A stretch of DNA of 59,534 nt from assembly GCA_000701625.1 (NCBI GenBank), contig KL370804.1, positions 1 through 59,534 on the forward strand, read 5' to 3'. Position 1 is the stretch's first letter. Every line of letters begins with the position of its first letter. Origin of the DNA: Lachnospiraceae bacterium MC2017 (GTDB taxonomy: Bacteria; Bacillota; Clostridia; Lachnospirales; Lachnospiraceae). Shown here piece by piece: positions 44,135 through 48,459 of this stretch. A program made the translations under genes and the position numbers. Below the pieces are notes generated by a model, which saw only the letters and a list, made by a program, of their open reading frames with translations, was not told the DNA's origin and did no database searches.

Positions 44135-44998
44135 ATGAAAATAGGTTTTATTGGAGCAGGAAAAGTTGGCTGTACTCTTGGGAAATTTTTTACTGAGGGC
44201 GGGATTCGTATGACCGGTTATTATAGCAGGCATATAGAGTCGGCAAAGGCAGCGGCGGATTTTACAGGTACTTGTTGTTATGATGAACTTTCCAGACTGG
44301 TTCATGATAGTGACGCGATATTTATAACTGTTCCGGATGGTACGATCACAAGTATTTACAAAGAGCTAATTAAGTTCGACATAAGAGGAAAACAGATCTG
44401 TCATTGCAGTGGATCAATATCCGCAGGAGAAGCATTTCCTGATGCTGCAGAGACCGGTGCGTTAGTCTATTCTATACATCCGTTATTTCCCATTAGTGAT
44501 AAGTTTACAACTTACAGGGAATTAACGGATGCATTTTTTTGTCTGGAAGGAGACGAAAAATGTGTAAATGAATGGAAAGAACGTCTTGAATTAATGGGGG
44601 CAAAAACTCAGGTGATAAACCCGAAAGATAAGGTCAGTTATCACGCAGGCTGCGCTATGGCAAGTAATCTTGTCTGTGCACTGCTCCATGAAAGCATCGG
44701 TTTACTTAAGGAGTGTGGTTTCAGTGAAACGGGAGCAAGAAAAGCCCTGGCACCATTGATACGCAGCAATATAGGACATATCCTTACTGACGGACCGGTA
44801 AAGGCACTTACAGGACCTGTGGAGAGAAATGATATCGGTACGGTCCGTAAACACATCGACTGTTTTCGCACAAATGCAGAAAAAGAGCTTTACTGTACGG
44901 TTTCTTCAGATCTTATTCAGATAGCCAGAGAAAAACATCCTGATACTGACTTTTCCGAAATGGAAAATGTATTACGGGAGGAACTTGTAAATGAGTAA
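44135..44998 (+). CDS. Rossmann-fold DUF2520 protein, possible ketopantoate reductase-like
   Basis: A 287-residue NAD(P)-binding protein: MKIGFIGAGKVGCTLGKFF (GxGxxG, residues 7-12), AIFITVPDGTITSIYKEL, HCSGSISAG and VYSIHPLFPISD, and the all-helical C-terminal DUF2520 domain (KVSYHAGCAMASNLVCALLH). ATG 44135 is chosen for its AGGAG; an in-frame extension to 43904 lies in the structured leader. It overlaps panB by 8 bases. DUF2520 proteins are structurally related to ketopantoate reductase, so a role in making pantoate is plausible but unproven. Confidence 0.88.
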   Translation: MKIGFIGAGKVGCTLGKFFTEGGIRMTGYYSRHIESAKAAADFTGTCCYDELSRLVHDSDAIFITVPDGTITSIYKELIKFDIRGKQICHCSGSISAGEAFPDAAETGALVYSIHPLFPISDKFTTYRELTDAFFCLEGDEKCVNEWKERLELMGAKTQVINPKDKVSYHAGCAMASNLVCALLHESIGLLKECGFSETGARKALAPLIRSNIGHILTDGPVKALTGPVERNDIGTVRKHIDCFRTNAEKELYCTVSSDLIQIAREKHPDTDFSEMENVLREELVNE

Positions 44999-45839
44999 GA
45001 ATACTGTTGCAACACTTGCTGCGATGAAGAAGAACGGTGAAAAGATCTCACAGGTAACATGCTATGACTATTCTACAGCACGCCTTGTAGACGCAGCCGG
45101 GATCAACATGATCCTTGTAGGAGATAGCCTTGGAATGGTGATGCAGGGTTATAAGGACACACTTCCGGTAACTGTAGATGAGATGATCGTATATGGCAGA
45201 AGCGTTGTAAGAGGATGTGAGAACACTTTTGTCTGTGTGGATATGCCATTTATGAGCTATCAGGTTTCCCCTGAGCAGGCACTTCAAAACGCAGGCAGGA
45301 TCATGAAGGAAACAGGCTGCAGTGCTGTTAAGCTCGAGGGCGGCAAAGATATCGCACCTGCTATCCGCCTGATCACAAATGCAGGAATTCCGGTTGTTGC
45401 TCACATTGGTATGACGCCTCAGTCGGTAAATGCTTTTGGTGGTTTCAAGGTACAGGGAAAGGGTGAAGCAAACGCACGTCGCGTCCTTGAGGATGCTCTT
45501 GCAGTACAGGAAGCCGGAGCATTTGCAGTGACACTGGAATGTGTTCCGCCGAAGCTTGCAGCGCTTATCACAAAAAAGTTGGACATTATCACAATAGGTA
45601 TCGGAGCCAGCAGCTGTTGCGATGCGCAGGTTCTGGTATATCAGGATATGCTTGGTATGTCAGGAGACTATGTCCCTAAATTCGTAAAGAGATTTGCAAA
45701 TGTCGGAGAGCAGATGAAAGAAGCTTTTAAAGCATACGATGCGGAAGTAAAGGCTGGAACTTTCCCGACACCGGATCAGACCTATAGTAAGAGTGACTGT
45801 TCAGACGAGTTTTTAAGCAAACTCGATGCTGAATACTAA
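44991..45839 (+). CDS. panB: 3-methyl-2-oxobutanoate hydroxymethyltransferase PanB
   Basis: First step of pantothenate synthesis: ketoisovalerate plus methylene-THF gives ketopantoate. The 282-residue protein has SQVTCYDYSTARLVDAAGI, MILVGDSLGMVMQGYKDTLP (metal-binding Asp), FVCVDMPFMSYQ, VKLEGGKDIAPAIR, PVVAHIGMTPQSV, ECVPPKLA and IGIGASSCCDAQVLVYQDML, all typical. Its ATG overlaps the DUF2520 gene. panC and panD do not follow; a terminator ends the operon. Confidence 0.97.
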   Translation: MSKNTVATLAAMKKNGEKISQVTCYDYSTARLVDAAGINMILVGDSLGMVMQGYKDTLPVTVDEMIVYGRSVVRGCENTFVCVDMPFMSYQVSPEQALQNAGRIMKETGCSAVKLEGGKDIAPAIRLITNAGIPVVAHIGMTPQSVNAFGGFKVQGKGEANARRVLEDALAVQEAGAFAVTLECVPPKLAALITKKLDIITIGIGASSCCDAQVLVYQDMLGMSGDYVPKFVKRFANVGEQMKEAFKAYDAEVKAGTFPTPDQTYSKSDCSDEFLSKLDAEY

Positions 45840-45871
45840 AGTAAAGGTAAAACAAACGATATCATAATTAA

Positions 45872-45915
45872 AACAGGAGCCGGAGGCAATGTAACTCTCA
45901 AGGCTCCTGTTTTTT
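45872..45915 (+). terminator. terminator of panB
   Basis: AACAGGAGCC pairs with GGCTCCTGTT, followed by TTTT. Confidence 0.85.
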
Positions 45916-45961
45916 GACTTACAGGAAAATCCGTTGGAATTCCTTCGGGTTAAAAATACGC

Positions 45962-46094
45962 GCAAAAAAAGAATAGCTTTGAATTGGTGAAGCTCTCGCC
46001 GCCGCATCTCTGCTATTCTTTTCTTCAGTCCGATAAGCCAAGTCCGATGAAGCTCTCGCCGTCTTACCTTTGCTTTATCTTTCTGTTTGTTGGT
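45962..46094 (-). ncRNA. candidate small RNA of two homologous structured units
   Basis: On the minus strand two 60-base units share CGGCGAGAGCTTCA (complement at 46048-46061 and 45988-46001) within further similar flanks. Each is enclosed in a stem: GATAAAGC with GGCTTATC, and AGAATAGC with GCTATTCT. The second stem is followed by seven Ts, which makes a transcription end. A good promoter lies upstream at 46101-46129, so a transcript of about 130 bases is predicted. No open frame of note. I recognise no known RNA family. Confidence 0.5.
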
Positions 46095-46100
46095 GATTTA

Positions 46101-46129
46101 ATAATAACCTATACAAAGGTGAAAATCAA
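46101..46129 (-). promoter_or_regulatory. minus-strand promoter of the candidate small RNA
   Basis: Read on the minus strand: TTGATT (46129-46124), a 17-base spacer and TATTAT (46106-46101). Transcription would start near 46094. Confidence 0.5.
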
Positions 46130-46324
46130 GTATAAAAGTATATACAATTTATAAAAAATATAATGAATGACAAAAATAAATGTGCAAAACTTATATGTGT
46201 CAGAAAAAATAAAAGCTGAAGCAGGGCATTTATCATAATGTTAAAAGATTTATATAAAACAAAAAAGAAAAATGATATAACAACCATCAATATATTTGTA
46301 TTATACAAGTACAGTTGAAATAAA

Positions 46325-46350
46325 AGGGGCAAAAGTACTTTTAACGTTAA
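46325..46350 (+). other. intergenic region upstream of the GH120 gene
   Basis: The 320 bases from 46130 to 46455 are AT-rich and carry no gene. They include the recurring AGGGGCAAAAG element (46325-46335) and a perfect palindrome TTAACGTTAA (46341-46350), a possible operator for the GH120 gene. Confidence 0.35.
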
Positions 46351-46455
46351 AGTTCATACGTTACGTGAGCAAGCTGAAAGCGAGGGAACAGTAAACCTTT
46401 TGACTCTTACATAATTAAAATAATAACCACAAACATTTATAGAGGAGGAAAAATC

Positions 46456-48459
46456 ATGCAGTATTATGTTTCGGCATCAGCATTCCGAAGTGGATGCGGC
46501 ACAAAAGAGAGTCCGTTCAAGACAATCTCTGAGGCAGCAAGGCTGGCAAAACCGGGGGATGAGGTGCTTGTAGCACCGGGTATTTACAGAGAATATGTAA
46601 ATCCAAAGAATGCCGGAACAGAGGAGAACAGGATAGTATATCGTTCCGAGAAAAAGGGTGAAGCTATAATAACAGGAGCAGAAGAAATAAAAAACTGGAA
46701 ACAGTTTGATGGTGATGTATGGTGTGTAAGGATTCCGAACGGACTGTTCAATGATTACAATCCATATACGGTTCCTGTAGCAGGCGACTGGTACTTTGCT
46801 CCGATACCGGTTCATACAGGAGAAGTATTCCTGAATGATAAGGCAATGTACGAGGTGATGGATCTCGAAAAGGTAAAAAAGCCGGAAGTGAACCGTCAGT
46901 CATGGGATCCGGAAGCAACAGTATATACCTGGTACACAGAGCAGGATAAAGATGCGACTGTCATATATGCAAATTTTCAAGGCAAAGATCCTAATAAAGA
47001 AAAGGTTGAGATAAATGTTCGTCAGAACTGCTTTATGCCGTCAGAAAATGATATAGGTTATATCACGGTTTCCGGATTTAAGATCTGCAAGGCAGCTACA
47101 CAGTGGGCGCCTCCGACAGCTTATCAGGATGGTATGATCGGACCGCACTGGTCAAAGGGATGGATCATCGAAGACTGTGAGATCTCCGATTCCAGATGCA
47201 GTGGTATTTCTCTTGGTAAATATCTGCAGCCGGAAAATAACAATAAGTGGACGACAAAGTTCTTAAAGGATGGAACCCAGACTGAGCGTGACAACATCAT
47301 GCAGGCACAGTATGAAGGCTGGACAAAGGAACGTATCGGATCACATATAGTAAGACGTTGTGAGATACATGACTGCGGACAGACCGGAATTGTAGGACAT
47401 CTTGGCGGAGTCTTCTCTATCATCGAGGACAACCATATTCATCACATCAACAACAAGCAGGATCTTGCAGGTGCAGAGATCGGTGGTATAAAGATGCATG
47501 CGGCTATAGATGTGATCTACAGGAGAAACCACATTCATCACTGCACAAGAGGACTCTGGCTTGACTGGCAGGCACAGGGAACGAGAGTTACTCAAAACCT
47601 TTTCCATGATAATGTGCCTCCTAAGGGAACTGACATCACACCGCTCCTTGGACTTGGCGAAGATATCTTTATCGAGGTTTCACACGGCCCGACGCTGATC
47701 GATAACAATCTGCTTCTTAGTGAATGTTCTGCGAGAGTTAGTACTCAGGGTATTGCATTCGTTCATAACCTCATTGCAGGATCCTTTACCTGGGTTGGAG
47801 ATGGTGTAAATAATGGAACCGTTAAACAGATGTCACCTAGATATACACCGTATCATGTACCTCACCGCACAGAGGTTGCAGGTTTCATGACGATCCTTCA
47901 CGGCGACGTTAGATTCTACAACAATATCTTCGTTCAGCAGGATGTGGTTCAGGACTATGTAGATCATGCAAAGCAGTATGAGACAACTTCTCAGTACAAT
48001 ATGACTGTCGGCACAAAGCCATATGACGGTTATCCGACAGCAGAGAAATATTTCAGTCAGTTCACAGGCTGGGATATAGAAATAGAGCACAACAGAGATC
48101 CGTACTATGAACATCTTCCGGTTTATACAGGCGGAAATGTATATTTCAACGGAGCAGAACCTTGCGATACAGAGAAAGATGCCTATGTTGACAACGAGCA
48201 CAAGGTAACACTGAAGCTCGAAACAAACGGTGCAAAAGCAAAGCTCGTAACAAATCTCTACGACTACCTGCCGGAGTGTGCTACAGAGACAGTTTCAACA
48301 GCACTTCTGGGACAGGCATTTGAGTCGGAAGAAAAGTTTGAGAATCCTGACGGAAGTCCCATTGTTTTCAATGAGGATTACTTCGGAAATCACCGTGCAG
48401 TAAATCCTCAGTTTGGACCTTTTGAAGCAGTACCCACAGATAAAACAGAATTATTCTAA
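46456..48459 (+). CDS. GH120 beta-xylosidase
   Basis: A 667-residue right-handed parallel beta-helix enzyme without a signal peptide, so intracellular. From the opening (QYYVSASAFRSGCGTKESPF) through WAPPTAYQDGMIGPHWSKGW, IEDCEISDSRCSGISLGK and IVGHLGGVFSIIEDNHIHH it follows the Thermoanaerobacterium GH120 xylosidase as I recall it. The catalytic Asp (LWLDWQAQGTRV, Asp370) and Glu (IFIEVSHGP, Glu407) are present, but about 14 extra residues (around PPKGTDITPLLGLG) lie between them. It would release xylose from imported xylo-oligosaccharides. GAGGAGG precedes the ATG. The sugar ABC importer is 1.5 kb downstream. Confidence 0.9.
   Translation: MQYYVSASAFRSGCGTKESPFKTISEAARLAKPGDEVLVAPGIYREYVNPKNAGTEENRIVYRSEKKGEAIITGAEEIKNWKQFDGDVWCVRIPNGLFNDYNPYTVPVAGDWYFAPIPVHTGEVFLNDKAMYEVMDLEKVKKPEVNRQSWDPEATVYTWYTEQDKDATVIYANFQGKDPNKEKVEINVRQNCFMPSENDIGYITVSGFKICKAATQWAPPTAYQDGMIGPHWSKGWIIEDCEISDSRCSGISLGKYLQPENNNKWTTKFLKDGTQTERDNIMQAQYEGWTKERIGSHIVRRCEIHDCGQTGIVGHLGGVFSIIEDNHIHHINNKQDLAGAEIGGIKMHAAIDVIYRRNHIHHCTRGLWLDWQAQGTRVTQNLFHDNVPPKGTDITPLLGLGEDIFIEVSHGPTLIDNNLLLSECSARVSTQGIAFVHNLIAGSFTWVGDGVNNGTVKQMSPRYTPYHVPHRTEVAGFMTILHGDVRFYNNIFVQQDVVQDYVDHAKQYETTSQYNMTVGTKPYDGYPTAEKYFSQFTGWDIEIEHNRDPYYEHLPVYTGGNVYFNGAEPCDTEKDAYVDNEHKVTLKLETNGAKAKLVTNLYDYLPECATETVSTALLGQAFESEEKFENPDGSPIVFNEDYFGNHRAVNPQFGPFEAVPTDKTELF

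Follow-up and report, generated by a model that had tools for sequence, protein, structure and literature searches.

What is encoded on the minus strand of Lachnospiraceae bacterium MC2017 just beyond the end of panB? The window analysed here is a stretch of 59,534 nucleotides (contig KL370804.1, positions 1 to 59,534), and a preliminary description, made from its letters alone, had proposed that 45962–46129 harbors a free-standing small RNA of about 130 nt with two homologous domains, perhaps binding sites for a protein or ligand. The elements on which this proposal rested are present as claimed. A −35-like TTGATT (46129–46124) and a −10-like TATTAT (46106–46101), the latter also found in most relatives of the window type, are separated by a 17-base spacer, and from the positions of the promoter and the terminator a transcript of about 130 nt is predicted at 45964–46094, with its start placed by the −10. 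Two 60-base units share an identical 14-base core, CGGCGAGAGCTTCA, at 46061–46048 and 46001–45988, offset by exactly 60 bases; allowing up to two mismatches, these are the only two sites of the core in the window, while shuffled sequences have 0.18 on average and 1 of 100 reached two. Each unit is closed by a stem. Hairpin unit 1 (46032–46079, minus strand; conserved core 46060–46048) has the outer stem GATAAAGC (46079–46072) paired with GCTTATC (46038–46032), leaving one bulged A, and hairpin unit 2 (45966–46023, minus strand; core 46000–45988) is closed by AAGAATAGC (46020–46012) and GCTATTCTT (45977–45969). The second unit is embedded in the terminator hairpin, whose stem (approximately 46023–46012/45977–45966) closes the unit, and with the seven Ts at 45970–45964 it makes an intrinsic terminator as judged by sequence. 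The unit model matches at 46071–46037 and 46011–45977, and unit 1 is supported by covariation. The 134-nt strand folds with −37.5 kcal/mol, compared with a mean of −26.1 in shuffles (z = −3.4), and none of 200 shuffles was equally low.

Two protein genes on the plus strand flank the RNA gene. panB, for ketopantoate hydroxymethyltransferase (44991–45839; Pfam PF02548, E 4e-116), is convergent to it, and a GH120-insertion/beta-helix gene (46456–48459; Pfam PF21258, E 2.9e-42) lies divergently on the promoter side. By eye, the copy in KH1P17 (L056) likewise adjoins a gene that strongly resembles this GH120-type one. panB and the RNA are probably unrelated; by eye, panB was not seen beside the other three copies in the same genome.

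The 4.26-Mb genome has four two-hairpin RNA genes of this kind, with eight hairpins. In a DNA search of the whole genome the paralogues, named C12, C35, and C3, show 79, 76, and 73% identity with the window copy in the region of the match (E 1.6e-37, 4.5e-23, and 4.6e-10), and the next match after the C3 copy appears only at E 0.12. The four copies can be aligned from the −10 through the T-run; their stems differ in sequence but mostly still pair, and 5 of 33 pairs are changed on both sides among just these four sequences. Folding is better than in shuffles for the C12 copy (z −3.5) but not for C35 (z −0.09) or C3 (z −0.70), so that the support for the structure is comparative and not energetic. 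The unit model finds eight matches in the genome with E up to 2.1e-5, the next being at 0.048, and a broader unit model also finds eight at E ≤ 0.02. These scans revealed no extra hairpin below E 0.04 in the genome that might serve as an mRNA target; targets would therefore need a weaker site.

The existence of four copies, with the other three 73–79% identical to that in the window over the matched parts, raises the possibility of a dispersed DNA repeat or mobile element having no RNA function, for which the preliminary description had advised looking. The similarity spans the gene from promoter to terminator, double changes preserve the pairing, and merely eight units (E ≤ 0.02) occur in 4.26 Mb, all of them inside the four promoter-terminator RNA genes. 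In addition, the gene preceding the C3-type copy is similar, by eye, in G014 and KH1P17. On these grounds a dispersed repeat appears most improbable.

Three of the four copies also share a 21-base promoter box, TTGTATATACTTTTATACTTG, which at 46127–46147 on the minus strand overlaps the −35 of the window RNA. At up to three mismatches the box has three sites in the genome, all overlapping the −35 of these RNA genes, and the reversed box used as a control has none. The fourth copy (C3), which sits after an HPr-like gene (by eye), has TTGACA as its −35 and is without the box. The box also precedes related RNAs outside this genome: eleven distinct boxes were found among the loci examined, all preceding such RNAs, in loci that had been chosen for carrying them. 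A dedicated regulator may bind at this box.

What is conserved in the unit? The plan of the hairpin was derived from 77 units representing 72 distinct 63-base stretches. In its lower part, an outer stem of any sequence is followed by a purine-rich 3 × 3 internal loop and the pairs u3-d2 and u2-d1; in its upper part, a pyrimidine (u1) faces an invariant A, and above it a single pair is followed by the UU bulge, which is likewise invariant, then by two pairs, for the most part G-C and C-G, and at the tip by 3–4 loop bases. In two alignments made from overlapping sets of units, the UU bulge and the A facing the pyrimidine are invariant (63/63 and 58/58), and the loop begins with G in 62/63 and 58/58. 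The apical loops seen are GAGA, GAAA, GAAG, GAU, GAGU, GUGU, GUGA, and GCGU. Among the 58 distinct units, seven of eight pairs have double-sided changes, amounting to 74 such cells against 21.9 in shuffles, and the covariation is 0.487 against 0.228 in shuffles and 0.128 or less in slid controls. The 63 units likewise gave seven of eight pairs changed on both sides and a covariation of 0.448 (shuffled, 0.211; slid, up to 0.113). At the remaining position, where u1 faces the A, 38 of the 58 units have U-A and 20 have a C, which makes no standard pair. Units were selected by likeness of the core, and the selection-free pairs are the outer ones only; these covary too, with double-sided cells numbering 20 at u2-d1, 11 at u3-d2, 27 at u7-d6, and 3 at u8-d7 in the 58 units. 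Seven of the nine units with two differences in the core have a Watson-Crick swap at one of the three core pairs (four loci); a random double change would give such a swap with a chance of 0.013, the nine units being not fully independent.

The same tendency is found in the RNA at full length: among 14 relatives, double-sided changes affect 11 of 33 pairs (38 cells vs. 12.6 in shuffles), including 5 of the 10 pairs in the terminator stem, and the covariation is 0.282 vs. 0.173 in shuffles, in an alignment that had been fitted to the structure; further pair types in these relatives were fewer than in 499 of 500 shuffles. Unconstrained folding gives the exact plan for the terminator hairpin of L166, a locus from genus g26 (z −3.05), and misses the whole predicted hairpin in L165 and part of it in L108 and L043. 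Compensatory changes in homologues, which had been set as a test of the proposed structure, are accordingly found in the paralogues, the hairpin units, and the 14 relatives, and they bear out the suggestion that stems vary in sequence and keep their pairing. What is conserved is the fold, together with the UU bulge and the fixed A, and not an open stretch that could serve as antisense.

This last point bears on a different kind of function. LhrC in Listeria and csRNAs in streptococci act by base-pairing, and csRNAs are multi-copy. An antisense family of this type would pair with mRNAs through unpaired stretches, such as the 5′ leader AAUYACCAA, with the hairpins stabilizing the RNA. Several homologous small RNAs per genome, three of them with a common promoter box, are what such a family looks like, and a similar unpaired 5′ leader (AAUCACCAA, AAUUACCAA) is shared by window-type RNAs and some of those in g26. 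The C3-type copy and the long arrays described below, however, have a different leader; the strongest conservation is in compensating paired bases, not in an open stretch; and pairing does not require chains of up to 14 hairpins. Because the conserved pairs swap partners, what is kept is not an antisense sequence, and the likeness to LhrC and csRNAs ends at the covarying fold, which is the conserved part here. An antisense role is thus unlikely. In the available part of PMC7602753, LhrC 1–5 are listed under LisR.

Relatives were sought with a model of the whole RNA (R1), which matched 3 of 61 genomes, that of MC2017 included, and with a loose tandem-pattern scan of a genome collection holding one genome per species for 84,980 species. 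The scan returned 46 stretches. R1 recognizes 17 of them, with a best E no higher than 2.5e-5 in each; the other 29 are without an R1 match (best, L030 at E 0.82) and resemble other repeats or coding sequence. The records of the 17 loci are titled Lachnospiraceae NK4A144 (4), KH1P17 (3), uncultured MAG (2), and C10 (1), Lachnospira (3), Eubacteriales (2), and uncultured Bacteroides (2). L031, which bears one of the Bacteroides titles, has five unit scores identical to those of the array in G319, a genome from the family of the window organism, and for this reason its title is probably a misnomer. Two-hairpin RNAs of the window type are those of NK4A144 (4), KH1P17 (3), and the uncultured MAG (2). 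The window locus itself seems conserved between the window species and KH1P17.

There are longer cases. Eight related loci hold arrays of 3 to 14 units: 14 in L035, 9 in L047, 6 each in L043, L044, and L054, 5 in L031, 4 in L039, and 3 in L057, counted at E ≤ 0.05 with a model (R3) that was built with many of the array units it then counted. None of five unrelated pattern matches scanned alongside matched R3. The spacing of the array units is irregular, 38–106 bases, which argues against coding repeats. By eye, promoter-like sequence precedes the arrays, with TTGACA and a −10 like TATTAT or TATAAT in seven of the eight and a weaker one in L057, and several arrays end in a terminator-like hairpin. 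The tandem pattern also picked up an unrelated 75-base tandem repeat in two Lachnospiraceae MAGs from water buffalo (L040, 7785–8000; L058, 3976–4150), which fits the loose pattern and fails the unit model. A phage origin was considered and dropped, as the sole viral contig fitting the tandem pattern carries a different repeat, which the unit model does not match at E ≤ 0.05.

The arrays are informative about what the hairpin might bind. Chains of up to 14 hairpins in relatives favor titration of a protein over the binding of a ligand, and a module that is fixed while its number varies is as expected of a titrating RNA. With a small-molecule sensor, the units would be tandem aptamers, the second of them in the terminator, and the ligand would decide on termination. 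The embedding of a unit in a terminator-like hairpin, seen in the window RNA and, by eye, in L096, L119, L166, and L168, is suggestive of this arrangement, but the apical loop is variable, no common downstream gene was seen by eye, and free-standing genes and chains of up to 14 units are unlike a switch. We consider a sensor very unlikely. More generally, inspection of translated reading frames by eye at 11 loci revealed no neighboring gene common to them, and no partner protein was found in this way.

The distribution of the family is patchy within Lachnospiraceae. With strict filters, a model termed R2 matches 5 of 392 genomes of the order at E ≤ 0.001, and R3 matches 4 of 391 genomes of the class, all within the family; such filters lose weak matches, and three g26 genomes positive with R3 had scored negative with R2. 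With permissive filters, 7 of 40 genomes of the window organism's own genus match at E ≤ 0.02; five of these are real carriers, with 8, 4, 8, 6, and 2 units, and the other two have single weak matches in apparent coding sequence. In g26, R2 matches 8 of 40 genomes (E ≤ 0.02) and R3 16 of 40 (E ≤ 0.001). A strict variant of the loop, GGYNGCGATGCTTYACC, found in 1 of 397 genomes of the family, was too narrow to be of use. So patchy a presence, with 5 real carriers among 40 genomes in the own genus and 16 among 40 in g26, is odd for a global regulator.

The g26 loci have features of their own. In six of them (L106–L111, with L109 and L110 nearly alike), two units are followed by a further conserved RNA-like region of approximately 200 nt. 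This region contains GGATGCGCAAC... and AGTCCATTGGAAATTCAGA and has a terminator-like end, and in the five of the six loci that were scanned no relevant Rfam match to it was obtained. According to a loose rule, 13 of 16 other g26 regions have two or three units and three (L159, L166, and L168) have one; the idea that single g26 sites are mRNA targets was dropped in view of these 13. A direct repeat, TGTGA(T/C)A-N4-TGTGATA, lies upstream in 10 of the 16 regions. In two g26 genomes a single unit is located near a potassium-uptake-like gene, as seen by eye. In L163, L166, and L168, behind the TGTGATA repeat, one or two units are immediately preceded by the reading frame of a peptide of 23–25 residues (LMFFGIHxxRYIxCxxNR), similar in the three loci; two of these peptides that were tested had no match in Pfam (E ≤ 0.1) or NCBIfam (E ≤ 1). 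Hairpins that are single, or that adjoin a small open reading frame, thus occur in g26, and pure titration has no need of either arrangement.

The hairpins might instead dock copies of a protein in order to build a complex, and not to remove the protein, as in an RNA scaffold or structural RNP. The anatomy, with a site number of 2 to 14, is equally compatible with such a role, and the g26 RNAs in which two hairpins precede the conserved region of about 200 nt could be read as scaffolds. Irregular spacing and widely differing numbers of sites nevertheless fit titration better, and a scaffold therefore seems an improbable account of the family.

Is the RNA already known? The suggested Rfam search gave no family match in 44500–47500 of the window at E ≤ 5. 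In Rfam 15, no match at the gathering cut-off was found in the eight array loci, and in a set of 24 loci the sole match above its cut-off is one TwoAYGGAY, all others being below theirs. This TwoAYGGAY (RF01731, 60.9 bits; L098, 1676–1832, minus strand, in G352) is on the strand opposite a two-unit RNA, some 140 bases away from the last of its units. No earlier description of the RNA family and no match to the literal core strings was found in the literature searched, which took in few subscription papers. On the best reading the family is new, as judged by Rfam 15 and that literature only.

The nearest functional analogy is with CsrB and RsmZ. The motif recognized by CsrA is ANGGA, and RNAs of the CsrB/RsmZ type carry repeated hairpin sites. 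The likeness consists in a free-standing RNA that has the form of a gene by sequence and contains several copies of one site (here 2–14 units), and in the presence of several such RNAs per genome with their own promoters, which are probably regulated. The site here, however, is a UU-bulged hairpin and not ANGGA, and there is no Rfam match. ANGGA was enriched (fraction ≤ 0.05 in 300 shuffles each) in 2 of 14 RNAs, L108 and L165, both from g26, and was below the shuffle mean in eight; the window RNA has 0 sites, and no enrichment was found in window-type RNAs or long arrays. Moreover, csrA is present in 10 of 10 carriers and in 12 of 13 genomes counted as non-carriers and so does not discriminate between them. 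CsrA was rejected as the partner on these two counts, the motif being not enriched in 12 of the 14 RNAs, although it could still serve the two ANGGA-enriched g26 RNAs. In its proposed mode of work the window-type RNA is like CsrB, yet it fails the motif test that defines that family. A second, divergent csrA-like gene is found in L179 (2629–2925; G000 contig C23), by eye beside flagellin-like and integrase-like genes; it recurs in G014, the second of the two species that have four window-type RNAs, and is a lead only. Sequestration of CsrA/RsmA by the small RNAs CsrB/CsrC and RsmX/Y/Z is described in the accessible text of PMC7602753, where the title of a reference also states that GacA acts through RsmY and RsmZ in Pseudomonas aeruginosa. 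The confinement of the box to the promoters of these RNAs recalls the latter system.

Other RNA-protein pairs share single features with the family. ANTAR sites are paired hairpins with six-base loops having A first and G fourth, whereas the loops here have 3–4 bases with G first, a UU bulge is conserved, and the window region is without a riboswitch match. What is shared is a small RNA that sequesters a protein in a Gram-positive bacterium, as reported for EutX/Rli55 and the ANTAR regulator EutV (PMC7602753, in the part available). The pan motif consists mostly of tandem simple stems for which binding of a dimeric protein was suggested (PMC2864571, in the section available), and both the tandem stems and the pan gene adjoining the window RNA bring it to mind. 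The stems of the pan motif, however, are found ahead of pan operons and contain two As that bulge out. The UU bulge, the orientation convergent to panB, and the lack of an Rfam match at E ≤ 5 rule out identity with this motif. LoaP, too, is a protein that binds a hairpin in Firmicutes, and in the available portion of PMC12691694 its target hairpin (dfn) is described as having a UNCG tetraloop in the leader of target operons. None of the aligned units, 63 and 58 in the two overlapping sets, has a UNCG loop, and LoaP was ruled out as the partner on account of the UNCG loop given there for its hairpin.

Most likely, therefore, a small RNA in which a distinctive hairpin occurs twice is encoded here; the comparative evidence favors the view that it is free-standing and that the two conserved sites may bind protein. 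We propose, with a probability of roughly 0.55, that it is a member of a new Lachnospiraceae family of free-standing RNAs whose hairpins titrate one RNA-binding protein. A varying apical loop, a conserved fold with its bulge and A, 2–14 repeats, and no shared neighboring gene as judged by eye make a protein-binding module the simplest reading. In this scheme one RNA-binding protein would recognize each bulged hairpin; once the promoter fires, the RNA would be made and its repeated hairpins would take up the putative partner, and the capture would release the mRNA targets of that protein. The logic would be as in CsrB/RsmZ, with a different hairpin and a different protein.

Going further, and somewhat short of even odds, part of the Lachnospiraceae may have a second post-transcriptional circuit, running in parallel with Csr and apart from it, in which a UU-bulge-binding protein is held by multi-hairpin RNAs whose promoters are under dedicated regulators. 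These regulators would act through one box in the genus of the window organism and through the TGTGATA direct repeat in g26. RNAs that hold a protein at many sites are known best from Csr/Rsm, and the same architecture with an unrelated hairpin in Firmicutes would, if the reading is true, be a solution that evolved again. Lachnospiraceae is a major family of gut bacteria, and titration of this kind would point to an undescribed RNA-binding protein in it, for which the hairpin could be used as bait.
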